Below, piece after piece: positions 3,515-47,264 of a stretch of DNA of 64,000 bases. The notes beneath the pieces were generated by a model. It ran no database searches, was not told the DNA's origin, and saw only the letters and a list, made by a program, of their open reading frames with translations. Source of the DNA: Actinomycetota bacterium (GTDB taxonomy: Bacteria; Actinomycetota; Geothermincolia; Fen-727; Anoxymicrobiaceae); assembly GCA_018831265.1 (NCBI GenBank), contig JAHJCO010000005.1, forward strand, positions 62,001 through 126,000, given 5' to 3'. The position numbers and the translations under genes were made by a program. How positions within the stretch are numbered: position 1 is the first letter of the stretch; every line of letters begins with the position of its first letter.

Positions 3515-4927
3515 ATGAGCAGGGTTGTCGTGCTGGGGCACTGCCCCCTTCCATACGAGGACCTCCAGCGATCCTACGGACCGGGCACCAGGACCTGGCA
3601 GTTCGCCGGCCCCCTCGTAGCCGACGGCCACGAGGTGACCGTGGTCGCCTCGCGCATCCCCTTCGTGTACCCCGATGACCGCGAGCCGGTGAAACGCTCG
3701 GAGGAGAACGGCTGCGTCGTCTATCGCGTCGAACAGACCGCCTTCGAGGTGGGAGGCCAGGCCGCCCGCATCATCGACGAGGTCGGCCCTGACTGCCTCG
3801 TGGGGGCCACCGCCTACCCGTCCTACATCGCGGCCATACTGGCGGGCGAGATACCGGTCTGGGCGGACGTGTTCGGCAGCCTGCTGGCCGAAGCCCAGGC
3901 CAAGGCCGCCGCCTACGGAGATGACTCGTTCATGGAGCACTTCGTGCGCATGAGCAAGTCCATCCTGGTGGTGGCCGACCGCTTCAGCACGGTGTCGGGA
4001 AGGCAGGCCTACGAGCTGGTGGGACAGCTCGGGATCATGGAGCGGCTCACCTCCGGGACCATCGGCTACGACTTCGTCTTCCCGATCCCCTGCGGCGTGG
4101 AGCCGATGGAGTTCCCAGCCCCGGCGGACCCGACAGGGGGGCGTGCGGGGCCGGACGGGTTCATCGTGCTGTGGAGCGGCGGGTTCAACACCTGGACCGA
4201 CGTGGACACGCTCTTCGCCGGGCTGGAGGCGGCGATGGAGAGATCGCCGGGGGTCCACTTCGTATCGACCGGTGGCACCATCGAGGGTCACGACGAACTG
4301 ACCTACCCGCGCTTCGAGGAGCTGGTCTCCTCGAGCCGCTTCCGGGACCGCTTCCACCTGAAGGGCTGGGTGAGGCGGAGCGAGGCGATGTCTTACTACG
4401 GGGCCGCCTCGGTTGGCATCAACCTGGACGCGCGGCACTACGAGGTCACCTTCGGGAGCCGCAACCGCCTGCTCGAGTGGGCACTCGCCGGCCTTCCTGC
4501 CATCAGCACGGACCTGTGCGAGCTTACCGGGGAGATGGCTTCGGAGGGGAAGCTCTTCACCATCCCGGTGGGAGATCCCACCGCCCTTGCGGAGCGCATC
4601 CTCGAGCTGGAATCGGACCGGGGGAAGCTGGCCCGCGTCTCCGACGGGCTTGCCGACATGGTCCTGGAGCGCTACTCGTTCGAGTGCACGGTGCCGCCCC
4701 TGCTCGAGTGGGTACGCGACCCCTCTCACTCTCCCGACTTCCCGGATCGAAGGGCGATGCGCGTGGAGGCCAGGGAGGCGACGCTGGCCGCCCTGAAGCC
4801 GGCACTCACCCCGGAATCGCCTCTCTCCCACAAGGTCAGGCATTACCTGAAGAGCGAAGGCGTCTCATCCACCGTGAGACGGGTAGCGCCTTACCTGAAG
4901 CGCAGGTCCGGGGGTGAGCGCCCGTGA
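3515..4927 (+). CDS. GT4-like glycosyltransferase
   Basis: The protein has 470 residues with a GT-B layout. The N-terminal half starts with the Rossmann strand SRVVVLGHCPLPYEDLQRS and contains DGHEVTVVASRIPF. The C-terminal half has LWSGGFNTWTDVDTLFAGLE and a nucleotide-sugar binding region around FGSRNRLLEWALAGLPAIST. A GT-B enzyme would transfer a sugar from an NDP donor to a lipid-linked or other acceptor at the cytoplasmic membrane face. The stop codon overlaps the GTG start of the next gene, so they are translationally coupled. Donor and acceptor cannot be read from the sequence. Confidence 0.85.
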   Translation: MSRVVVLGHCPLPYEDLQRSYGPGTRTWQFAGPLVADGHEVTVVASRIPFVYPDDREPVKRSEENGCVVYRVEQTAFEVGGQAARIIDEVGPDCLVGATAYPSYIAAILAGEIPVWADVFGSLLAEAQAKAAAYGDDSFMEHFVRMSKSILVVADRFSTVSGRQAYELVGQLGIMERLTSGTIGYDFVFPIPCGVEPMEFPAPADPTGGRAGPDGFIVLWSGGFNTWTDVDTLFAGLEAAMERSPGVHFVSTGGTIEGHDELTYPRFEELVSSSRFRDRFHLKGWVRRSEAMSYYGAASVGINLDARHYEVTFGSRNRLLEWALAGLPAISTDLCELTGEMASEGKLFTIPVGDPTALAERILELESDRGKLARVSDGLADMVLERYSFECTVPPLLEWVRDPSHSPDFPDRRAMRVEAREATLAALKPALTPESPLSHKVRHYLKSEGVSSTVRRVAPYLKRRSGGERP

Positions 4928-7132: not shown

Positions 7133-7195
7133 ATGTCCTGTTCCGGCGGGCGGATGCGTATAACCGTGTGAGCGGACATGCCAGGGAGATGGCGT

Positions 7196-8389
7196 TTGAA
7201 GATTGCGTACTTCAGCCCGTTGAACCCGATCAAGTCCGGCGTCTCCGACTACTCGGAGGAGCTGCTGGAGTACCTCGCGGGATTCGGGCGAATAGACCTG
7301 TTCATAGACGATTACAGGCCGAGCAGCTCCTGGCTGTTCGACTGCTTCAGGATAAGGGGCTACCGCGAGATCTACGACAACCACGGCAGTAACGACCACG
7401 ACATACACGTCTACCACGTAGGTAACAACGACATCCACTCCTACATATACGGCGTGAGCCAGGAGTACCCCGGCCTGGTGGTGCTCCACGAGCCGATGCT
7501 CCACCACTTCGTCTTCTCCCAGACCGTGGGCAACAACAGGGTCCGCGAGTACCTGCGGGAGCTCGATTACTGCTACAAGACCGACCGGGCCCGCATCGTG
7601 AAGACCACGCTGGAGGACCGGGACGAGGGCTCCTGGTACGACTACCCGCTGCTCGACAGGATCGTTGACAGCAGCCTGGGGGTCATAGTGCACAGCGACT
7701 TCGCCGCGGCCAAGGTCCTGGAGGCGAACCCGCAGGCACGCCTGCGCAAGATACCGCACCACTATTCCCCGCCGGCCGCCAACCACATGCGCTCCCCGGA
7801 ACTGGTCCGTGAGATCCTCGGCTTCAGGCCGGACGACTTCCTGGTCGGCTCGCTGGGGTACATGACCTCGAGCAAGCGCATCGACATCCTTCTCGGGGCG
7901 GTGGCCTCGGTCAAGGGCATGGGGTACCCGATCAAGCTGCTCCTGGTGGGCAAGATGCTGCCGGGCTGCGAGGCTCCTCGCTGGATAGAGGAGCTGGACC
8001 TGGACGGTGACGTCCTGGTGACGGGGTTCGTGGACACGCGCACCTTCCGGGAGTACCTGAACGTGCCCGACATGTTCGTTGCGCTCAGGCACCCCAGCGC
8101 CGGGGAGACCAGCGGGAGCGTGATCAAGATGATGGGGGCCGGGAGCCCGGTGATGGTCTCGGACCACTACGCGTTCAGCGAGTTCCCGGACGACTGCTGC
8201 GTGAAGATAACAACCGGCGAGGCCGAGCAGGACCAGCTGGTCGAAAAGCTCGTCTACTACTGCGAGAACGCGGACGAGCGCAGGGAGCTGGGCGGGCGGA
8301 GCCGGCGATACATACTCGCGAACCACGACATCCAGGACTCGGCGCGCCAGTACGTGGAGTTCGCCACGGAGGTGCTTTCCTGCAAATGA
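7196..8389 (+). CDS. GT4-like glycosyltransferase
   Basis: From TTG 7196 the protein has 397 residues. I chose TTG 7196 because GGGAG at 7184-7188 is well spaced and the product then begins with the family-typical MKIAYFSPLNPIKSGVSDYS. ATG 7178, six codons upstream, has no clear ribosome site but is possible. The N-domain has VYHVGNNDIHSYIYG and VVLHEPMLHH. The C-domain has VGSLGYMTSSKRIDILLGA and RHPSAGETSGSVIKMMGAG, where the Glu fits the donor-ribose contact of GT4 enzymes. Repeats on both sides suggest it may be transcribed alone. Confidence 0.85.
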   Translation: MKIAYFSPLNPIKSGVSDYSEELLEYLAGFGRIDLFIDDYRPSSSWLFDCFRIRGYREIYDNHGSNDHDIHVYHVGNNDIHSYIYGVSQEYPGLVVLHEPMLHHFVFSQTVGNNRVREYLRELDYCYKTDRARIVKTTLEDRDEGSWYDYPLLDRIVDSSLGVIVHSDFAAAKVLEANPQARLRKIPHHYSPPAANHMRSPELVREILGFRPDDFLVGSLGYMTSSKRIDILLGAVASVKGMGYPIKLLLVGKMLPGCEAPRWIEELDLDGDVLVTGFVDTRTFREYLNVPDMFVALRHPSAGETSGSVIKMMGAGSPVMVSDHYAFSEFPDDCCVKITTGEAEQDQLVEKLVYYCENADERRELGGRSRRYILANHDIQDSARQYVEFATEVLSCK

Positions 8390-8470: not shown

Positions 8471-8624
8471 ACGGTCATCGACTTTAGGTAGCAGGTTGTC
8501 GGGGATGTAGCGAAGAAATACCCGCGGCGGTTTTTTGAGCCGTCGGCCGTATACTTGAAGGACAATCCGGCTGTAAGGCCAACAATTGCTTAGACGTCAT
8601 ACACCCAGAGAGTATGGAGGGACG

Positions 8625-11057
8625 ATGAAACCCCAGTCCGGCGGAATGAAATGGATCGCGCGGGCCGCGCTCGCGGCGGCGCTTTGCTCGGCTCTTATCG
8701 CGGCAGTAGCGATATCCCCCGCTCCGAAGGAGGGGTCGAAAGGGGGCGTCGTCTCGATACAGAAGGCCCTGGCGGGTGATTTTTCCGGCGCGGGACTGGC
8801 GGACCGCTATCTGTTGGGGCTGTTCTCAGGGGACTTCACGGACGACCTGAAGACGCATTACCCGGCCTCGGAGTGGCCCTGGGTGCGCAACGCGCGCCTG
8901 TTCGTCAACTGGAAGCTCATCGAGCAGGGTGGCAAGGGCCACTACGCCTGGTCGAGCCTCGACCAGGAGATAAACAGCGCGCTCTCCCTTGGCTTGAACA
9001 ACATCATGCTGACCATCAGCGGGCCCTGCCCCACCTGGGCGACCAACCCCAACAACCTCGACCCCAAGTTCATGGGCGTCCCCAAGAAGATGAGCGACTG
9101 GGCCGACTTCTGCGGAGCGGTGGCCGCGCGCTATCGCGACGTTGTGGATTTCTACCAGGTCTGGCAGGAGCCGGGTTGGGACAGCGACGCTCCGCCGGCC
9201 TCTTACGGGCTCATCTACTTCTCCGGGTACTGCGACTACCAGTACCTGGGGCTGCTCCGCTCGGCCTACCAGTCGATCAAGGCCGCCGACCCGGAGTCAT
9301 TCGTAAGCGCCGCCGCGATGATGAACGGGATAACCCGGTCGGCCAACGACTTCCACAACTACGACGTGCTCTTGAGCGGCGGCAACCTCGATGTCTCCAT
9401 GAAGGTCAGTGCGAACCGCGACATCGTCGCCGAGCGGCCGATGTACTTCAACTACCAGGGCACCTGGCCGGGGGGTAACGTGGAGCTGGGCGTCCAGACC
9501 CCGAACACCACATGGTACCTCGCCGAGGGTGCGACCCACCCCGGCTTCGAGGAGTGGATATCCATCCAGAACCCGCAGAACACCGACGCCACGGTCAACA
9601 TCACCTACATGTTCCCGGGCGGCGGCACGCAGCCCCAGACGGTGAGCGTGGGCGCCCACTCGCGCTACACGGTGGACGTGAACGCCGCGGTTGGACCGGA
9701 CAAGAACGTCTCGGCGAAGGTGGAGTCCTCCCAGCCGGTGGTGGTCGAGCGGCCTATGTACTTCATGTACCACGGGGTGTACCCCGGAGGTTCCATCGGG
9801 GCGGGCGTCACAGCGCTGTCCACCGAGTGGTTCCTCGCAGAGGGGGCGACCCACCCGGGGTTCGAGGAGTGGATATCCCTGATGAACCCGGGCGGCTCCT
9901 CCGCGAACGTGAAGATAACCTACATGTTCGACGGAGGAGGCACGCAGGTGCAGAACGTGACCATGCCTCCGACATCGCGAGAGACGGTCCTGGTAAACGA
10001 CATCATCGGTCCCAACAGGGACGTCTCGGCCATGGTGGAGTCGAGCCAGCCGATAATCGCCGAGCGGCCCGTGTACTTCAACTACCAGGGCAAGTGGCCC
10101 GGGGGCTCGACCCAGTTCGGCGCCACCCAGGCCGACAGCTCGTGGTTCCTGTCGGAGGGGACGACACGTAACAACGGTGTCGACGGGCAGTTCGACGAGT
10201 GGATCTGCATCCAGAACCCCGGCAACGCCACGGCCGAGGTGGACCTTACATACATGTTCACCGGGGGAGGCACCCAGGCCGGTCACGTGTCGGTTCCTGC
10301 TCACTCCAGGGAGACTGTGAACGTTGACGAAGAGGTGGGGGACAACCAGGATGTCTCCGTCCAGCTGGATAGCAGCCAGGACATAGTGGTCGAGCGGGCA
10401 ACCTACTACGACTACCACAACACCCACTCCGGCGGCGACGCCGAGCTTGGCTGCACCGCGGCCGGTAAGGAGTGGTACTTTGCCGAGGGCACGACCAGAT
10501 CCGGGTTCGAGGAGTGGCTCACCCTCCAGAACCCCAACGCCGCGGATACCGCGGTCACCATCACCTACATGTTCACCGACGGGACGACCCAGGAGCAGAG
10601 CGTGAACCTCCCGCCCAACAGCCGGACCACGGTCGGTGTCAACAGGTCGCTTTCCATGGTGAACATCTGTGACAGCCTGGCCATACACCCCTACGACTAC
10701 CCGGACTACTGGGCCTGGTACTACAACGTGCTGAAGGACATGTGCGCGGCAAAGGGGTTCGCCGGCAAGGAGATAATCGTCTCCGAGATAGGGTGGCCCT
10801 GGGGCACCATGCAGGAGTTCAGCCCCGAGGGGCAGCGCCAGGCGATAGGCGAGGTCGGCCTCGGCGGCCTGTGGGGCGCCGGGTGCAGGAAGATCTGGGT
10901 CTTCGAGGACATCGACATCGCGCCGGGAACCTCACCGGGCAACGACTACTACGGGCTCTACGACTACTACGGTAATCCGCACCCGGCCTGGGGCGAGTAC
11001 AAGAACTGGCAGACGCAGCTCCCCGACTACGGGAACAAACCGAACCATTTTCCTTGA
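8625..11057 (+). CDS. Secreted glycoside-hydrolase-like protein with four DUF5719-like repeats inserted in the catalytic domain
   Basis: The protein has 810 residues. ATG 8625 is preceded by GGAGGG; upstream in-frame codons are not needed. An N-terminal signal or anchor helix lies at about residues 9-30. A TIM-barrel-like glycosidase half follows, with WQEPGW and Glu182 as candidate acid/base. Residues about 262-680 are four ~105-residue repeats with motifs such as WYLAEGATHPGFEEWI and ERPMYF. The barrel then resumes at NICDSLAIHPYDYP, with EIIVSEIGWPWG and Glu721 as candidate nucleophile, followed by a WGAGCRKIWVFEDID strand. It probably acts outside the cell on a polysaccharide. Catalytic roles are inferred from clan A patterns. 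Confidence 0.8.
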   Translation: MKPQSGGMKWIARAALAAALCSALIAAVAISPAPKEGSKGGVVSIQKALAGDFSGAGLADRYLLGLFSGDFTDDLKTHYPASEWPWVRNARLFVNWKLIEQGGKGHYAWSSLDQEINSALSLGLNNIMLTISGPCPTWATNPNNLDPKFMGVPKKMSDWADFCGAVAARYRDVVDFYQVWQEPGWDSDAPPASYGLIYFSGYCDYQYLGLLRSAYQSIKAADPESFVSAAAMMNGITRSANDFHNYDVLLSGGNLDVSMKVSANRDIVAERPMYFNYQGTWPGGNVELGVQTPNTTWYLAEGATHPGFEEWISIQNPQNTDATVNITYMFPGGGTQPQTVSVGAHSRYTVDVNAAVGPDKNVSAKVESSQPVVVERPMYFMYHGVYPGGSIGAGVTALSTEWFLAEGATHPGFEEWISLMNPGGSSANVKITYMFDGGGTQVQNVTMPPTSRETVLVNDIIGPNRDVSAMVESSQPIIAERPVYFNYQGKWPGGSTQFGATQADSSWFLSEGTTRNNGVDGQFDEWICIQNPGNATAEVDLTYMFTGGGTQAGHVSVPAHSRETVNVDEEVGDNQDVSVQLDSSQDIVVERATYYDYHNTHSGGDAELGCTAAGKEWYFAEGTTRSGFEEWLTLQNPNAADTAVTITYMFTDGTTQEQSVNLPPNSRTTVGVNRSLSMVNICDSLAIHPYDYPDYWAWYYNVLKDMCAAKGFAGKEIIVSEIGWPWGTMQEFSPEGQRQAIGEVGLGGLWGAGCRKIWVFEDIDIAPGTSPGNDYYGLYDYYGNPHPAWGEYKNWQTQLPDYGNKPNHFP

Positions 11058-14699: not shown

Positions 14700-14810
14700 T
14701 AACTCCTCCCGCTGTTCGACCTCCCGCGGCTCACCGGCGCGGTTTCTCTATAATGTATTCGGGCGGGCGGTACGTCTCGCCTTGTTGGCATGCAAGCGGG
14801 GGGAGAGGCA

Positions 14811-15782
14811 TTGGAGGGTAAGACGGACGAGGGCACCGGGAGCGCGGAGCCGCTGGTCTCGGTGATCATCGTGCTGTACAACTCCGGCGAGTTCATAGGG
14901 TCCTGCCTGAAGGCGCTGGCGGCATCGCGCTACCGGGAGTTCGAGGTCATCATGGTTGACAACGGCTCCACGGACGGCTCGGCTCGCACCGCCCGGCGGG
15001 CGGCGGAGGAGGCGGGCATCGAGAGGGTGCTCGTGAGCCGCCTCGCGCGCAACGCCGGGTTCGCGGCGGCCAACAACCGGGGGGCCGGGCTCGCGGACGG
15101 GGAGATACTGCTGCTGCTGAACCCCGACACCGAGGTCTACGAGGACGCTATAGGCGAGTTCGTGGAGGCGTGCCGGCCGAGCGACGTGGGCGTGGTGGGC
15201 TGCAAGGTCTACTACCCGGACGGCAGGACCATTCAGCACGCCGGAGGCTACATCCGGGACAACGGGCTGACCATGCACTACGGCGTGGACGAGGAGGACA
15301 CAGGGCAGTACGACCGGCCCGCCGACGTGGCCTACGTGACCGGCGCGGCGTTCGCGGTCCGGCGGGACGTGTTCTTCCGGGCGGGAGGTCTGGACGAGGG
15401 TTACTTCCCCGCCTACTTCGAGGAGACGGACCTGTGCCTGAAGGTGAGGCGGATGGGATGCCGGGTGCTGTACCACCCGGGGCCGCGCGTGATCCACCAC
15501 GAGTCGGTGACCACGGGCAAGTTCACCCGGCGCTACTACTACCTGTACCACCGGAACCGCGTACGCTTCATGCTCAAGAACTTCTCGGTCGATTTCCTGC
15601 TGAACCGCGCCTGGCCGATGGAGCAGCGCTGGCTGGGTATGATAGAGATGGAGGACCAGGCGATCCCGCTGAACAAGGCCTACCTGGTGAACCTGGTCAA
15701 CCTCCCACGTACCCTGCTTGCCCGGCGGCGCACCGACCGGCTCGTCGGGCCCAGGATCGAGGACACGGTCTCCAGCCTGTGA
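14811..15782 (+). CDS. GT2 family glycosyltransferase, rhamnosyltransferase-like
   Basis: From TTG 14811 the protein has 323 residues. A run GGGGGGAG at 14798-14804 favours TTG 14811 over ATG 14790. The GT-A fold is shown by VSVIIVLYNSGEFIGSCLKA, the DNGSTDGS motif, NAGFAAANNRG and a DxD-like LLNPDTEV. VTGAAFAVRRDVFFRAGGLDE and EETDLCLKVRRMG are typical of WbbL-like rhamnosyltransferases. The stop TGA is the first three bases of the 29-bp repeat that follows. Confidence 0.87.
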   Translation: MEGKTDEGTGSAEPLVSVIIVLYNSGEFIGSCLKALAASRYREFEVIMVDNGSTDGSARTARRAAEEAGIERVLVSRLARNAGFAAANNRGAGLADGEILLLLNPDTEVYEDAIGEFVEACRPSDVGVVGCKVYYPDGRTIQHAGGYIRDNGLTMHYGVDEEDTGQYDRPADVAYVTGAAFAVRRDVFFRAGGLDEGYFPAYFEETDLCLKVRRMGCRVLYHPGPRVIHHESVTTGKFTRRYYYLYHRNRVRFMLKNFSVDFLLNRAWPMEQRWLGMIEMEDQAIPLNKAYLVNLVNLPRTLLARRRTDRLVGPRIEDTVSSL

Positions 15783-40552: not shown

Positions 40553-40600
40553 GCCTCTCCTACCCGCTTTTCGGTCTATAAAACAGGATTTGGTCATTGA

Positions 40601-40650
40601 TGTCAAACCGACCGGTCAATATTGGTTACGGTAACATACGGACGACCGGT
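40601..40650. promoter_or_regulatory. Candidate regulator promoter and operator cluster
   Basis: On the minus strand a perfect TTGACA (40606-40601) lies about 50 bases before the regulator start, with a poor TTTATA-like -10. Next to it are GACCGGTC (40610-40617, perfect palindrome), GTTACGGTAAC (40625-40635) and another GACCGGT (40644-40650). These sites also lie upstream of the divergent secreted-protein gene. TetR-family operators often have such ACCGGT palindromes. Confidence 0.5.
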
Positions 40651-40791
40651 AACGCGTTTTTAACAGTCCGCGGACATCGGGTTAACCGGCGCGACGTTAT
40701 TCAATGCGGGGTCCGAAAGAGCGATCCTTCCGATTGGCGAAGTCGAGCGAGTACCGATAGAATCGGGTCACCTGACGAGGGGGAGGTTGTC

Positions 40792-43404
40792 ATGAAGAAG
40801 TGTTTTACATCCGTCGTAGCGGTGGTCGCTCTCCTTGCGGCTCTGCTGGTGCTGGGGGGCGCCGCACCGGCCGCCTACGCTTGGACGGACACGGGTGGAC
40901 CCGGAGGCGCAGGTGGTGTCACCTCAATGGTCTATGACGGAACGCGGGACGTCCTCTACGCCGGAACCGTCACCGGCGGTGTCCTGCGCTGCAAGAGCGC
41001 TTCCACCGCTCCGGTCTGGGAGGTCGTCGGGGGCAGTCCGTACCTTACCGACGTGGAGGCGCTTGCCTATGACCCGGTACGGAACATCCTCTACGCGGGC
41101 GGAGCCCCGGGAGACGGCATGAGCGTTTGGCGAAGGCCTGCCCCTCACTCCGCCGGCACCTGGGCCGATATCTCGCAGGGCTCCTGGGTGACCGACCCCG
41201 ATCCTCAGCACTATGACATGACCACGCTGTCCTTCGCGAACGATACACTCTTCGCGGGTACGAGGACAGACGACGTGTGGAAAGTGCAGGACCCCCACCT
41301 GGTGGCTCCGCCACCGCCGGCGATCACTGACTGGGTCCGGATGAACGTTGCCTGGGTCTCGACGACCTGGGTTAACTGCCTTTGCGCGGACACCACCAAC
41401 ACGGCGCTCTTCTGCGGTCTCCCCGGCAACACCGGTATCTGGCGTTGCGACAACGCGTTCAACGCCACGCCGCCGTACGTCTGGGTACAGATGGGGAACG
41501 ACGCGGGCCTCCTGGGCGGCATATCCCTCGAGATGAATGCCGCCAGGAACAGGCTCTATGCCTCCACCCGGAACTCGACCAACGGCAAGTACCAGGTCTG
41601 GCGCACAGACGCCCCCAACGCGGCGACGCCGACCTGGACGGATCTCAACTACCCGGCCGCCGACTCGTGGAAGACACTTAACCTGAACGCCCTGTCCTAC
41701 GACGAGACCGACGGGATACTCTACGTGGGCGGGCAGCAGGGCGTCTACAGGGTCCAGGATGTCAACGGAACTCCTTCATGGACCAACATCGGCAGTGCCA
41801 TAGCGTCCAAGGATGTGGATCCCGTGACCTACGGTGCCACCGGGGACACGGTATTCGCGGGGACAGGCACGGATGGCGTCTGGTCCGCCGCGGTCCCCGC
41901 ACCCACGATATCGAGCATCTCCCCGACAATCGGGGATGTCGGGACCGAGGTAACGATCAACGGGTCGAACTTCGGGAGCGCCCGGGGCACCTCCTTCGTC
42001 TCCTACGGCTCGACGGCGGCGACTGACTACTCGTCCTGGGGCGACACCCAGGTGAAGTGCGATGTCCCTGTCGGTGTCTCAGGGGAGGTCGATGTGACGT
42101 TGACGACTTACTTCGGCGGGGAGTCGAACGCCAAGACCTTCACCGTGACCCACCCCACCTGGTACCTCGCTGAGGGCTCGACCGACTGGGGATTCGCGAC
42201 CTACATCTCCATGGAGAACCCGAACTCCACGGACGTGACCGCCCGCATAACCTACAATACCCGGACCGGCACCCAGGACGGCGGGGACCACGTGCTGCCG
42301 GCCGAGTCCCAGACCACGATCTACCCGGCGGACATCATCGGCGCCACCGACTTCTCGACGAAGGTGGAGTGCCTGGAGGGCGAGACCATCGCGGTGGACC
42401 GGACCATGAAGTGGACCGGACCGGGCGCCGCTTCAGAGGAAGGCCACGCGGCCGTTGGTGTCACGGCCCCGGACACCACATGGTACCTGCCCGAGGGCTC
42501 GTCCGCGTGGGGCTTCGAGTGCTGGCTGCTCATCCAGAACCCGGGCGCCACCGAGGCGACCTGTACCGTGACCTACATGATCGAGGGGGAGGGGCCCGCG
42601 CCGGTCACCAAGACCGTGGCGGCGGGGACGCGCGCAACCTTCAACATGGCGGACGACATCGGGGCGCGCGACGCCTCCATCCAGGTCGAGTCCAACGTAC
42701 CTGTAATCCCCGAGCGGGCCATGTACCGGAACAACCGCAGGGAGGGACACGACTCGACCGGCACGACCGCGGCGGCCAACAACTATTTTCTTGCCGAGGG
42801 CTCTACCAACTGGGGCTTCACGACCTACGTGCTGGTGCAGAACCCCAACGCGACCGATACAACGGTCACCATCACCTACATGACATCGGACTTCGGCCCG
42901 CAGCCGCAGACCCCGTTCGTAATGGCCCCCGGTACGCGTACCACCATCAGGGCCAACGACTACCTGGCCGGCCACGACCTGTCCACGCTGGTGACCGGCA
43001 CCCAGCCGATAATCGCGGAGCGCGCGATGTACTGGGACGCCGGGCTCGGTGAGGCGTGCCACGATTCCATCGGCATGGATGCCGCGCACAAGACGTTCTA
43101 CCTGCCTGACGGAGAGACCATAAACGGCCGCGAGACCTGGACCCTGGTCCAGAACCCCGGCGTCGCGGCGGTGAACATCACCGTTACCTACTTCCCCGAG
43201 GGCGGGGGCACGCCGGTCACCTTCACGGACTCGGTGGATGCCAACTCGCGCAAGACCTACAACATGGCCGATTCGGGGGTATTCGGGCGGGCGGCCGTCC
43301 AGGTGACCTGCGACACCGCGGGCGGCAACATAATGTGCGAGCGCGCCATGTACTGGAACAACCGCGGAGCGGGCACGGACACGATCGGCGGCTTCAGCGA
43401 TTGA
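40792..43404 (+). CDS. Secreted multidomain protein: propeller-like, IPT/TIG and DUF5719-like repeats
   Basis: From ATG 40792 (GGGGGAGG upstream) the protein has 870 residues. A signal peptide ends at AAYA-WTDTGG. Residues about 30-365 have repeated strands with YAGT-like motifs (VLYAGTVTGG, ILYAGGAPGD, ILYVGGQQG), suggesting a beta-propeller. An IPT/TIG domain follows (TISSISPTIGDVGTEVTING, about 369-450). Four DUF5719-like units with WYLAEGSTDWGF and ERAMYW motifs occupy about 453-870. The end RGAGTDTIGGFSD is shared with the next large gene. It is probably an extracellular adhesion or envelope protein; no anchor is seen. Confidence 0.82.
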   Translation: MKKCFTSVVAVVALLAALLVLGGAAPAAYAWTDTGGPGGAGGVTSMVYDGTRDVLYAGTVTGGVLRCKSASTAPVWEVVGGSPYLTDVEALAYDPVRNILYAGGAPGDGMSVWRRPAPHSAGTWADISQGSWVTDPDPQHYDMTTLSFANDTLFAGTRTDDVWKVQDPHLVAPPPPAITDWVRMNVAWVSTTWVNCLCADTTNTALFCGLPGNTGIWRCDNAFNATPPYVWVQMGNDAGLLGGISLEMNAARNRLYASTRNSTNGKYQVWRTDAPNAATPTWTDLNYPAADSWKTLNLNALSYDETDGILYVGGQQGVYRVQDVNGTPSWTNIGSAIASKDVDPVTYGATGDTVFAGTGTDGVWSAAVPAPTISSISPTIGDVGTEVTINGSNFGSARGTSFVSYGSTAATDYSSWGDTQVKCDVPVGVSGEVDVTLTTYFGGESNAKTFTVTHPTWYLAEGSTDWGFATYISMENPNSTDVTARITYNTRTGTQDGGDHVLPAESQTTIYPADIIGATDFSTKVECLEGETIAVDRTMKWTGPGAASEEGHAAVGVTAPDTTWYLPEGSSAWGFECWLLIQNPGATEATCTVTYMIEGEGPAPVTKTVAAGTRATFNMADDIGARDASIQVESNVPVIPERAMYRNNRREGHDSTGTTAAANNYFLAEGSTNWGFTTYVLVQNPNATDTTVTITYMTSDFGPQPQTPFVMAPGTRTTIRANDYLAGHDLSTLVTGTQPIIAERAMYWDAGLGEACHDSIGMDAAHKTFYLPDGETINGRETWTLVQNPGVAAVNITVTYFPEGGGTPVTFTDSVDANSRKTYNMADSGVFGRAAVQVTCDTAGGNIMCERAMYWNNRGAGTDTIGGFSD

Positions 43405-43567: not shown

Positions 43568-43655
43568 CTCGCCTTTCAGCGGTTCAGCGGTAAGACCTCG
43601 CGGCCGATAAAGAACGTGTAGGGTGAGGGTGGCGGTCCAACCAGGAGGTATTCCC

Positions 43656-46600
43656 GTGAGCGGCCGTGGGGTATCCGCGTTCCTGTCCGGAAGATCGAGG
43701 TCCATTCCCGCCCTGGCCCTGGTCACGGTCATTCTCCTGTGCCTGCTTTCACCGACGGCCTTTTCCGGTGTCCGCTGGGGCTCGCCCCTGGTGATGTGCG
43801 ATCAGGCCGCGTCGCAGAACGTGGAGATGGTAACAGACGGCGACGGCGGGTTCTACGCCGCCTGGGCGGACAACCGGGCAGGGAACATGAACCTGTACGC
43901 GTTGAAGGTGGACAGGGACGGCAACCGGGCCGCGGGCTGGAGCCTCAACGGGAATGTCGTCTGTGACAACGCCGCCTTGCAGTCCACCTGCTCGGTGTGC
44001 TACGAAAGTGCCGCGGGTGGCCTGGTCGTCTCCTGGAGCGACAGCCGTTCGGGTACCGAGGACGTCTACGCGCAGAAGCTGGACTCGAGCGGGAACCGGC
44101 TCTGGGAGAACCCGACCGTGCCGGGGGACTACAACGGCGTCCCCGTTTCCGCGGCGTCTGGAAGCCAGACTTCGCCACGGATAGCGGAGGATGGCGCCGG
44201 GGGCGCGATAGTGGGCTGGCAGGATTCCCGGACCGCCGCCTGGGACCTATATGCGCAGAGGGTCCAATCGAGCGGCCTCGTGGCCTGGACCGCGAACGGG
44301 ATCGTTGTCTGCGATCAGCCGAACTACCAGATAGAGATGCAGGCGGTGAAGGACGGGGCGGGGGGAGCGATATTCGTCTGGCAGGACTACCGCAGCATCG
44401 ATACCTACGACATCTACGCGGAGAGGCTCGATTCGTCCGGCAGCCGACCATCCGGGTGGAACGAGGACGGAAACCGCGTCTGCCTCAACACCGACGCGAA
44501 CCAGACCTACCCGAACCTCGTCTCCGACGGGGTGCAGGGGGCCTCGATAGCCTTCATCGACGAGCGGGACGGCTTCAGCGTCTACGCCAACAGGATCCTG
44601 CAGAACGGTTCGATCGACGGCGACTGGAACCTCGATGGGAACCTCCTGGCCACAACCACCGCCCAGCAGGACTACCCCCCGGGCGTTGTCGCCGACGGTA
44701 CGGGCGGCCTGATAGTGGCATGGCGCAGGAACAACGTCGGGAGCTACGACCTCAGTGCCCAGAGGATAGACGGTGATGCCGCGTTTCCGTCCGGTTGGGG
44801 CGCTGCCACGGGCGTGGCGATCGCCGATGCGACCGGCGACCAGGCCTGGCCTGTGGTGACCACCGACGGCGCGGGGGGCGCCACGATCGGCTGGACAGAC
44901 TCGAGGTCGGGCAACCAGGACATCTACGCCACCAGGATAGGCGCGGACGCCGTCTTCCCCGCGGGCTGGGCCAAGAACGGGATCCCGGTCTACGAGGGCC
45001 CCAACAGCCAGCTGAAGCCGAGGATGACAAGTGACGAGAAGGGCGGCGCGTTCGTCGGCTGGCAGGACTTCACCACCTGGTACGTGTACGCTCAGCGGAT
45101 CTCCAACCCGGCGCCGACAGCTGACTCGATCGTTCCGGCGAGCGGCGATAACTCCGGTCCGGTCTCGATAACCGACCTGGCCGGCACGGGGTTCAGCACC
45201 ATCGGTGGCACGCCGACAGTCGAGCTGACCAGAGGGGTGGACGTCCTGACGGCGACCGGCGTATCGGTGAATCCGACCGGCACCTCGATCACCTGCGATT
45301 TCGACCTCACCGGCGCGGAGGCCGGCCCCTGGACCGTCATCGTGACAAACCCGGACGACCAGGATACCGAACTGATGGACGGCTTCACCGTGGATGAAGC
45401 CGTGGTCCCGCCTACCATGCAGACCGATCAGGCTACAAACGTCACGTACAACGGCGCTACGTTGAACGGGAACATCCTCGACACCGGGGGTGAGAACTGC
45501 ACCAGGGGCGTCCTTTACCGTCAGGTCGGCGCGGGCGCCTGGTCAAACAGATACCAGTTGGGGTTATTCGGGCCCGGCGCTTACGGTATCCCTATCTCCG
45601 GGACGCTGACCCCTGGTACGACTTATGAGTTCAAGGCGAGCGCCTTCAACTCGGCCGGTGGGGATGAGGGGGCGACGCTGCAGTTCACGACTACGGCGGC
45701 GCCCCAACCCGCCCCGACCGTCATTTCCATCACCCCTTCGTCAGGCACTCAAGGGTCCACCGTGAACGTGACCAACCTGGCGGGCACAGACTTCTACGGA
45801 ACCCCCGCCGTCAAGCTCAAGAGGACCGGGCAGACAGACATCACCGCAACCAATGTCGTCGTGGCCTCACCCACGAAGATCACCTGCCGCTTCGTCCTTC
45901 CCGCGAACGCGGCCCCCGGAGCCTGGAACCTGTTCGTACAGAACCCCGACGGCCAGTCAGCCACGAAGAACAGCGCCTTCACCATGAACGCCTCACAGGC
46001 CACCTATCCCACCTGGTATCTGGCGGAGGGAACGACCGCCTGGGGGTTCTCCACCTACATATCGGTGGTGAATCCCAACGACACCTCCGTGACCGTGGAC
46101 CTGACCTACATGCCATCAGGAGAGCCCAACGAGGTGCAGACCGTGGTGATGCCCCCCGACTCGAGAGCCACCGTCTTCCCGGCGGACACCCTGGGGCAGA
46201 AGGACTTCAGCACCAAGGTGGAGTGCCGCGAGGGAAAGACCATAGCCGCCGACCGCACCATGGAGTGGACGGGAGAAGGCTCGGCCACCCCGGAGTGCCA
46301 CGGCTCGGTGGGCGTGACCTCCCCGGCGAAGACCTGGTACCTGCCCGAGGGCTCCACCAACTGGGGCTTCGAGTGCTGGCTTCTCATTCAGAACCCGAAC
46401 TCCGCCACCGCCCACTGCACGGTTACCTACATGATAGAGGGCTCCGGCGCGCAAGAGGTCTCACACGAGGTTGAGCCCAACTCACGCGCCACCTTCAACA
46501 TGCAGACCGACATAGGCAACAAGGACGCCTCCATCAAGGTGACGAGTGACGTTCCCGTCATCCCCGAGCGGGCCATGTACCGCAACGACCGCAGAGAGGG

Positions 46601-47264
46601 CCACGACTCCATCGGCACCACCACGCCCGCGCTCGACTACTACCTGGCGGAAGGCACAAGCGCCTGGGGCTTCACCACCTTCGTGCTGGTTCAGAACCCG
46701 AACCCGACCGATACATCAGTGAACGTCACCTACATGACGGGAGAAGGCCCCGTGCCCCACCCCGAGAACCCCATCACCATGAGCGCGAACTCACGGCGCA
46801 CCATAAGGGTGAACGACTACCTGCCCGACCGGGACTTCTCCACCCGGGTGACCGGAGACCAGCCCATAATCGCGGAACGAGCCATGTACTGGGACTCAGG
46901 AACAGGAGAGGCCTGCCACGACTCCATCGGGATGGACTCACCGCATGCCACCTTCTACCTCCCCGACGGGGAAGCGGGTTCCGAGGTGGAGACCTGGACG
47001 CTGGTGCAGAACCCCAACGCAACAGACGCTATGGTCACCATCACCTACATGACGGAAGACGGCACGGGCAACGTGGTCAAGACAGAGACCATTGGGGCCA
47101 GCTCCCGCTCCACCTTCAACCTGGCGCAGCACTCCGGGCTTTCGGGAAGGGCAGCCATCGTGGTGGAGAGCAATGATGCGGCAAAGCCCGTCATGGTGGA
47201 GAGGGCCATGTACTGGTACTCCCGGGGAGCGGGCACGGACACCATCGGGGGCTGTAGCGATTAG
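43656..47264 (+). CDS. Large secreted protein: propeller-like, two IPT/TIG, Fn3-like and DUF5719-like repeats
   Basis: From GTG 43656 the protein has 1202 residues; AGGAGG at 43643-43648 decides the start. A signal helix precedes AFSG. Residues about 40-480 hold repeats of the form DGAGGAIVGWQDSR, typical of a WD-like propeller of secreted bacterial proteins. IPT/TIG-like domains lie at about 485-580 and 685-780, with an Fn3-like domain between. Four DUF5719-like units fill about 785-1202, ending RGAGTDTIGGCSD. Its last ~420 residues match the organisation of the preceding gene. Role inferred as cell-surface or matrix protein. Confidence 0.82.
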   Translation: MSGRGVSAFLSGRSRSIPALALVTVILLCLLSPTAFSGVRWGSPLVMCDQAASQNVEMVTDGDGGFYAAWADNRAGNMNLYALKVDRDGNRAAGWSLNGNVVCDNAALQSTCSVCYESAAGGLVVSWSDSRSGTEDVYAQKLDSSGNRLWENPTVPGDYNGVPVSAASGSQTSPRIAEDGAGGAIVGWQDSRTAAWDLYAQRVQSSGLVAWTANGIVVCDQPNYQIEMQAVKDGAGGAIFVWQDYRSIDTYDIYAERLDSSGSRPSGWNEDGNRVCLNTDANQTYPNLVSDGVQGASIAFIDERDGFSVYANRILQNGSIDGDWNLDGNLLATTTAQQDYPPGVVADGTGGLIVAWRRNNVGSYDLSAQRIDGDAAFPSGWGAATGVAIADATGDQAWPVVTTDGAGGATIGWTDSRSGNQDIYATRIGADAVFPAGWAKNGIPVYEGPNSQLKPRMTSDEKGGAFVGWQDFTTWYVYAQRISNPAPTADSIVPASGDNSGPVSITDLAGTGFSTIGGTPTVELTRGVDVLTATGVSVNPTGTSITCDFDLTGAEAGPWTVIVTNPDDQDTELMDGFTVDEAVVPPTMQTDQATNVTYNGATLNGNILDTGGENCTRGVLYRQVGAGAWSNRYQLGLFGPGAYGIPISGTLTPGTTYEFKASAFNSAGGDEGATLQFTTTAAPQPAPTVISITPSSGTQGSTVNVTNLAGTDFYGTPAVKLKRTGQTDITATNVVVASPTKITCRFVLPANAAPGAWNLFVQNPDGQSATKNSAFTMNASQATYPTWYLAEGTTAWGFSTYISVVNPNDTSVTVDLTYMPSGEPNEVQTVVMPPDSRATVFPADTLGQKDFSTKVECREGKTIAADRTMEWTGEGSATPECHGSVGVTSPAKTWYLPEGSTNWGFECWLLIQNPNSATAHCTVTYMIEGSGAQEVSHEVEPNSRATFNMQTDIGNKDASIKVTSDVPVIPERAMYRNDRREGHDSIGTTTPALDYYLAEGTSAWGFTTFVLVQNPNPTDTSVNVTYMTGEGPVPHPENPITMSANSRRTIRVNDYLPDRDFSTRVTGDQPIIAERAMYWDSGTGEACHDSIGMDSPHATFYLPDGEAGSEVETWTLVQNPNATDAMVTITYMTEDGTGNVVKTETIGASSRSTFNLAQHSGLSGRAAIVVESNDAAKPVMVERAMYWYSRGAGTDTIGGCSD

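Follow-up and report, generated by a model that had tools for sequence, protein, structure and literature searches.

A PslG-like barrel protein of an Anoxymicrobiaceae bacterium with a half-unit-permuted ASRAH tetrad placed by modelling in a single barrel loop

The window analysed in this study is a stretch of 64,000 nucleotides from the genome of an Actinomycetota bacterium of the Anoxymicrobiaceae, referred to below as the source genome. The gene of interest encodes a protein of 810 residues (Table 1), and a longer open reading frame of the same gene, with a TTG start, opens at 8586. It lies among genes for glycosyltransferases, a flippase, methyltransferases, an aminotransferase and sugar oxidoreductases, and glycosyltransferase families also dominate the 57 neighbouring proteins collected from seven relatives. 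The window protein is very probably a single glycosidase barrel interrupted by an ASRAH tetrad. An earlier reading of the DNA alone (the sequence-only reading) had placed Glu182 in WQEPGW and Glu721 in SEIGW as the catalytic pair, and both residues were found there in the translation.

Table 1. Features of the interrupted barrel gene and of conserved neighbouring genes in the window.
Feature	Position	Strand	Basis or remark
Second glycosyltransferase, conserved neighbourhood	3515..4927	+	51-65% identity in G001, G006, G011
Glycosyltransferase (group 1), directly upstream	7178..8389	+	orthologue, 65-78% identity, directly upstream in G001, G006, G011
Whole gene, 810 aa	8625..11057	+	GGAGGG just 5' of ATG at 8625
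Residues 1-32, basic then hydrophobic; putative signal peptide or membrane anchor	8625..8720	+	sequence reading
Barrel N-half, beta1 to alpha5, residues 61-255	8805..9389	+	
Glu182, predicted acid/base, WQEPGW; pairs with PslG Glu165	9168..9170	+	alignment
Insert, residues 256-681: four ASRAH/DUF5719 units, permuted (half 2 first, half 1 last)	9390..10667	+	
Opening half-unit h2, residues 256-284; predicted partner is the closing h1	9390..9476	+	
Complete sandwich 1: h1 297-353 and h2 361-389	9513..9791	+	
Complete sandwich 2: h1 402-458 and h2 466-494	9828..10106	+	
Complete sandwich 3: h1 507-568 and h2 576-604	10143..10436	+	
Closing half-unit h1, residues 617-673; predicted to finish a fourth sandwich with the opening h2	10473..10643	+	
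Barrel C-half, beta6 to alpha8, residues 682-810	10668..11054	+	
Glu721, predicted nucleophile, SEIGW; pairs with PslG Glu276	10785..10787	+	alignment
Family-2 glycosyltransferase, conserved neighbourhood	14790..15782	+	61-66% identity in G001, G006, G010, G011

About 420 residues of beta repeats had been noted between the two halves, and the insert was found to be 426 residues long, with four units spaced at 105-110 residues (315, 330 and 315 nucleotides). DUF5719 (PF18986) matched it in four stretches with 74.9 bits (cut-off 26.2), and ASRT (PF07100) scored 33.8 (cut-off 25). Each unit was divided into a first half (h1), from the Trp strand to SRxTVxVN, and a second half (h2), from DVSxKV to ERPMYFNY. 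The insert opens with DVSMKVSANRDIVAERP and closes with SRTTVGVNRSLS, confirming that it starts and ends in one repeat phase, and the natural boundary of an ASRT/ASRAH sandwich lies half a unit off the start of this insert. According to De Souza et al. (2009, PMC2739507), the ASRAH sandwich is built of two four-strand repeats, and multidomain proteins carry it in dyads or tetrads. Foldseek searches with the AlphaFold2 model described below recovered the same eight-stranded beta-sandwich of two four-strand repeats in the insert units, with TM 0.77 by target length over about 113 residues against 1NC7 (TM1070) and TM up to 0.84 by target length against the ASRT structures 2ii7/2ii8. In all four units strand 1 begins with a Trp preceded by a polar residue (TTWYLAEG, TEWFLAEG, SSWFLSEG, KEWYFAEG), which is a described ASRAH feature (PMC2739507), and strand 2 ends with the conserved Asn in each of them (ISIQNP, ISLMNP, ICIQNP, LTLQNP). 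The pocket His and Cys of the SHEshChhN motif are absent from the units (FEEWISIQN and similar), as they are from ASRAH families other than the ASRT-like ones (PMC2739507). A phmmer search of the PDB with a single repeat unit gave no match.

For the barrel, the flanks (residues 61-255 and 682-810), used alone or joined, matched no Pfam family significantly, including any glycoside hydrolase family, and the joined window barrel alone gave no relevant match in the PDB, so that a family profile was needed. Such a profile was built from eleven barrels, the window protein included, with the inserts left out. Against the PDB it matched PslG with an E value of 2.8e-12 over profile positions 22-310 of 326. 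The sequence-only reading had proposed a search of the joined halves against glycoside hydrolase families; the eleven-barrel profile led to PslG, and the window barrel by itself to no family. In the profile alignment both Glu residues are in register with PslG at 4zn2 chain positions 139 and 250, which a constant offset of 26 turns into Glu165 and Glu276, the acid/base and the nucleophile of PslG (PMC11912335). Foldseek of the model also found PslG, over about 185 residues (E 1.4e-6). The cut-off of PF01229 (Glyco_hydro_39) was not reached by the window barrel; two of the eleven members matched this family weakly (best E 0.0032), and some fit GH42 and GH5 better. The barrel is named PslG-like here and is not filed as GH39, because the Pfam GH39 family was not reached. 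From homology and the model, the window protein is predicted to be a secreted or membrane-anchored PslG-like retaining endoglycosidase, GH39-type, with a clan GH-A fold.

In clan A (GH-A), an Asn usually precedes the acid/base Glu. The window protein has Gln181 at this position, while class-level relatives keep the Asn (WNEPGW). One barrel homologue (L083) carries Gly there (VWGEPGW). Such variation (N, Q, G and D across the barrel family) could suit a non-catalytic, carbohydrate-binding pseudoenzyme, in which barrel and tetrad together would form a structural component of the surface, and the nucleophile Glu is replaced by Ser in three paralogues of the source genome with the same insertion (L125-L127). 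Against such a component stands the invariance of both catalytic Glu in the eleven-member alignment, where they match the PslG pair, and we consider it improbable for the window protein.

An alignment of 13 sequences was the basis of the AlphaFold2 model of the full protein, which reached a mean pLDDT of 77 and a pTM of 0.79; single-sequence AlphaFold of the full protein gave a pLDDT of only 36. In the array, pLDDT was mostly >90. Ten-residue blocks of the barrel ranged from about 35 to 88, a moderate confidence explained by the fact that only four aligned rows cover the barrel. The modelled strands of the N-half are beta1 (65-68), beta2 (89-94), beta3 (126-132), beta4 (176-180) and beta5 (226-234). 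These are followed by alpha5 (240-250), the insert, and then beta6 (684-689), beta7 (716-719) and beta8 (760-762) of the C-half, which places the insert in the alpha5-beta6 loop. The beta/alpha order expected of a barrel was thus obtained, while the confident barrel that had been hoped for came out at moderate confidence and the shared pocket of the two Glu residues rests on the alignment. Together with the PslG profile match, this order supports the proposal that whole permuted units interrupt one clan-A-like barrel between the two catalytic Glu residues. In a beta/alpha barrel the alpha-to-beta loops lie on the face opposite the catalytic strand ends, and therefore the array would exit from the bottom of the barrel. 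The insert is accordingly predicted, from homology and a model of moderate confidence in which the barrel fold and active-site residues are likewise inferred, to sit opposite the active site. The suggestion that the active site is placed at the tip of a surface stalk found no support, since the modelled insert leaves from the opposite face, and the loop position led us to reject the stalk as the leading idea.

Matches were obtained in 35 of the 98 related genomes searched, and many of them were split identically. The split point and the phase are shared by about twenty relatives from across the class, a recurrence that rules out chance. Their insert lengths are near 106, 218, 320-332, 424-442 and 529 residues, corresponding to one to five whole units. 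Within the same class, the two insert-free homologues L108 (385 aa) and L104 (505 aa) have a contiguous barrel with a short linker at the join. The sequence-only reading had allowed that the joined halves might not form a barrel, or that two different proteins had been fused by misassembly. In L104 and L108 both halves form one contiguous barrel, and about twenty relatives drawn from different genomes, named public MAG contigs among them, show the same fusion. Nothing spoke in favour of misassembly or accidental fusion, which was rejected on these grounds and has a practically negligible chance of being correct.

The number of units differs between barrels of one genome (one in L105 and five in L106; in another genome one in L115 and four in L114) and between close relatives (two in L117 and three in L111 and L112; elsewhere three and four). 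At least seven changes of unit number are required on the barrel tree. When the tree was rooted on L125-L127, the insert-free L104/L108 branched first in the main group; when it was rooted on insert-free outgroups, L104/L108 joined L125-L127 (89/81, long branches). The insert may thus have been gained once and then lost again, or gained several times. Since relatives carry one, two, three or five units, a four-fold ring cannot be obligatory.

About 60 source-genome stretches chosen around matches were surveyed for arrays in complete open reading frames (n = 66), and 64 of the 66 arrays had four units. By phase, 57 arrays were natural and terminal, three natural and internal, and one irregular; the remaining five were permuted, and all of these were internal. 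The association of permuted phase with internal position gave a Fisher p of 7e-6, although the five permuted arrays are not independent of each other. Four of them belong to the window protein and its three paralogues. The fifth is in L147, a host unrelated to the barrel, with helical-looking flanks that gave no Pfam or barrel match. L147 (L147:2210-5836, source genome C21) has a C-terminal TIG domain, and its four-unit array has the same permuted phase. A separate catalytic domain follows two of the three natural internal arrays (L158 and L160; AstE/AspA, GH114), the third being L192. Related PslG-like barrels without an insert (L242, L244 and L246, from G001, G023 and G020) carry a natural-phase tetrad at the C-terminus. 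In another genome from the same family all 17 complete natural arrays again had four units, three of these arrays also bearing a short additional stub; in a genome from a different family, 14 of 18 arrays had four. In donor tracing, the nearest neighbours of the inserted half-units were spread over all four positions of terminal arrays. Taken together, these sequence comparisons establish the insertion and its conservation in relatives, the phase pattern, the four-unit number of the source genome and the whole-unit differences among relatives. They reveal an apparent rule, with natural phase outside domains and half-domain-permuted phase inside them.

To explain the permutation, we propose that an ASRAH tetrad, the usual module on dozens of wall and surface proteins, was inserted into the alpha5-beta6 loop of the barrel. 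At a protein end or between domains the order of such a tetrad is h1-h2 four times. Inside the barrel it is circularly permuted to h2-(h1-h2)x3-h1, and the opening and closing halves would complete one sandwich. This pairing would bring both ends of the insert together at the base of the barrel, and a cut between h1 and h2 would put them in a short intra-sandwich loop, which has about seven residues in ordinary units. With such a cut the ends could meet at any unit number, and the variation from one to five units would therefore fit. The closure of one composite domain by the opening h2 and the closing h1 is predicted from the half-unit order. That the permutation serves as a means of end-joining is in our judgement fairly probable. 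For the whole explanation, a PslG-like endoglycosidase with a permuted, end-joined tetrad in one loop, we estimate a probability of about 0.68. As an extension, a closed tetrad with paired terminal halves may be able to dock, in the permuted form, in single loops of folds as unrelated as a barrel and a helical domain, giving the lineage a portable surface anchor that is independent of position and nearly constant in its number of units; the chances for and against this extension seem balanced.

The array could instead be a linear stalk of repeats that entered through inter-repeat recombination, in which case its phase would be an accident of crossover and the insert a mere spacer lifting the active site off the surface. 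The whole-unit changes between close relatives given above suit unequal crossing-over. However, the permuted phase is common to two unrelated host domains while terminal arrays are natural, 64 of the 66 arrays keep four units, the modelled insertion face points away from the active site, and the whole-chain pTM of 0.79 speaks against a floppy string. A linear stalk is therefore unlikely, and the constant four units in the source genome, the permuted phase and the pTM fit a compact module better.

Tandem modules within a TIM barrel and the ASRAH tetrad are both already known. The closest barrel is PslG (PDB 4zn2, 5bx9), an endo-beta-glucosidase classified in GH39 (PMC11912335), which resembles the window protein in its position among polysaccharide-synthesis genes, in the whole-barrel profile match and in the register of both catalytic Glu. 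Unlike the window protein, PslG shows no comparable insert in the alignment between the catalytic residues, where the window protein has its 426-residue tetrad, and the Gln before the acid/base Glu is a further difference from PslG. All four units of the insert share the sandwich fold, the strand-1 Trp and the strand-2 Asn with ASRT/ASRAH (PF07100, TM1070 1NC7) and DUF5719 (PF18986), whereas the pocket residues of ASRT are missing. ASRAH tetrads have been reported with amidases (PMC2739507), and the source genome also has a tetrad-amidase (L140). The known tetrads are described apart from the catalytic domain (PMC2739507), while the present one is shifted by half a domain and embedded in another domain.

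Insertion of a repeat array into a TIM barrel had been called unusual. A precedent exists in the GH10|CBM4 insertional xylanases (Xyn10C-like, Pm25; PMC7848910), which likewise hold tandem beta-sandwich modules inside a retaining TIM-barrel glycosidase, and the ASRAH insertion is a different variant. In those enzymes two CBM4 modules occupy the beta3/alpha3 loop, before both catalytic Glu (PMC7848910). The window protein lacks the combination of a CBM4 pair, the beta3/alpha3 position and a GH10 barrel that defines the group. It has four ASRAH units, permuted, in the alpha5/beta6 loop between the catalytic Glu, and its relatives have zero to five units. In the open-licence papers searched, we did not find a tetrad permuted by half a domain within a host domain, nor the phase pattern or the zero-to-five series of units. 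Inserting a tandem array into one loop without tearing the host is a topological problem, and the phase rule can be tested within a small protein family, since homologues with 0, 1, 2, 3, 4 and 5 units share the insertion point. A permuted tetrad could also serve as a grafting scaffold.

The same tetrads occur on SpoIID, M23, C39, amidase, deacetylase, GH17 and GH114 proteins, a host range that points to the cell wall or surface, and this lineage-wide surface module decorates many peptidoglycan and polysaccharide enzymes. PslG itself is encoded in the psl cluster (PMC11912335). From the content of the locus, the conserved glycosyltransferase, the parallel with PslG and psl, and the hosts of the tetrad, we infer that the protein is an anchored endoglycosidase with the surface polysaccharide of this locus as its substrate. 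Such an enzyme would trim or release the polysaccharide that the glycosyltransferases encoded around it produce. Sugar binding by ASRAH domains is a prediction from context (PMC2739507), and here the tetrad may bind a surface or wall glycan as an anchor. Even odds can be given to this combined role, an anchored PslG-like endoglycosidase of a surface-polysaccharide locus with the tetrad as its glycan-binding anchor.

Exactly four ASRAH/DUF5719 units are present in dozens of secreted-type proteins of the source genome (L133-L192; window 40597-43404 and 43623-47264). Most of these tetrads end a few residues from the C-terminus; some are N-terminal and stand before an amidase, M23, deacetylase or GH17 domain. 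Some C-terminal arrays (e.g. L142, L198 and L213) finish, at the extreme C-terminus, with a short stub resembling the start of a fifth h1. The three paralogues of the window protein (L125, L126 and L127, on C60 and twice on C15) are diverged but carry the same permuted tetrad insertion, and besides the Ser at the nucleophile position they have Asp before the acid/base Glu; from these residues they are probably pseudoenzymes. Each of them lies between other array genes, so that this cassette is present three times in the source genome.
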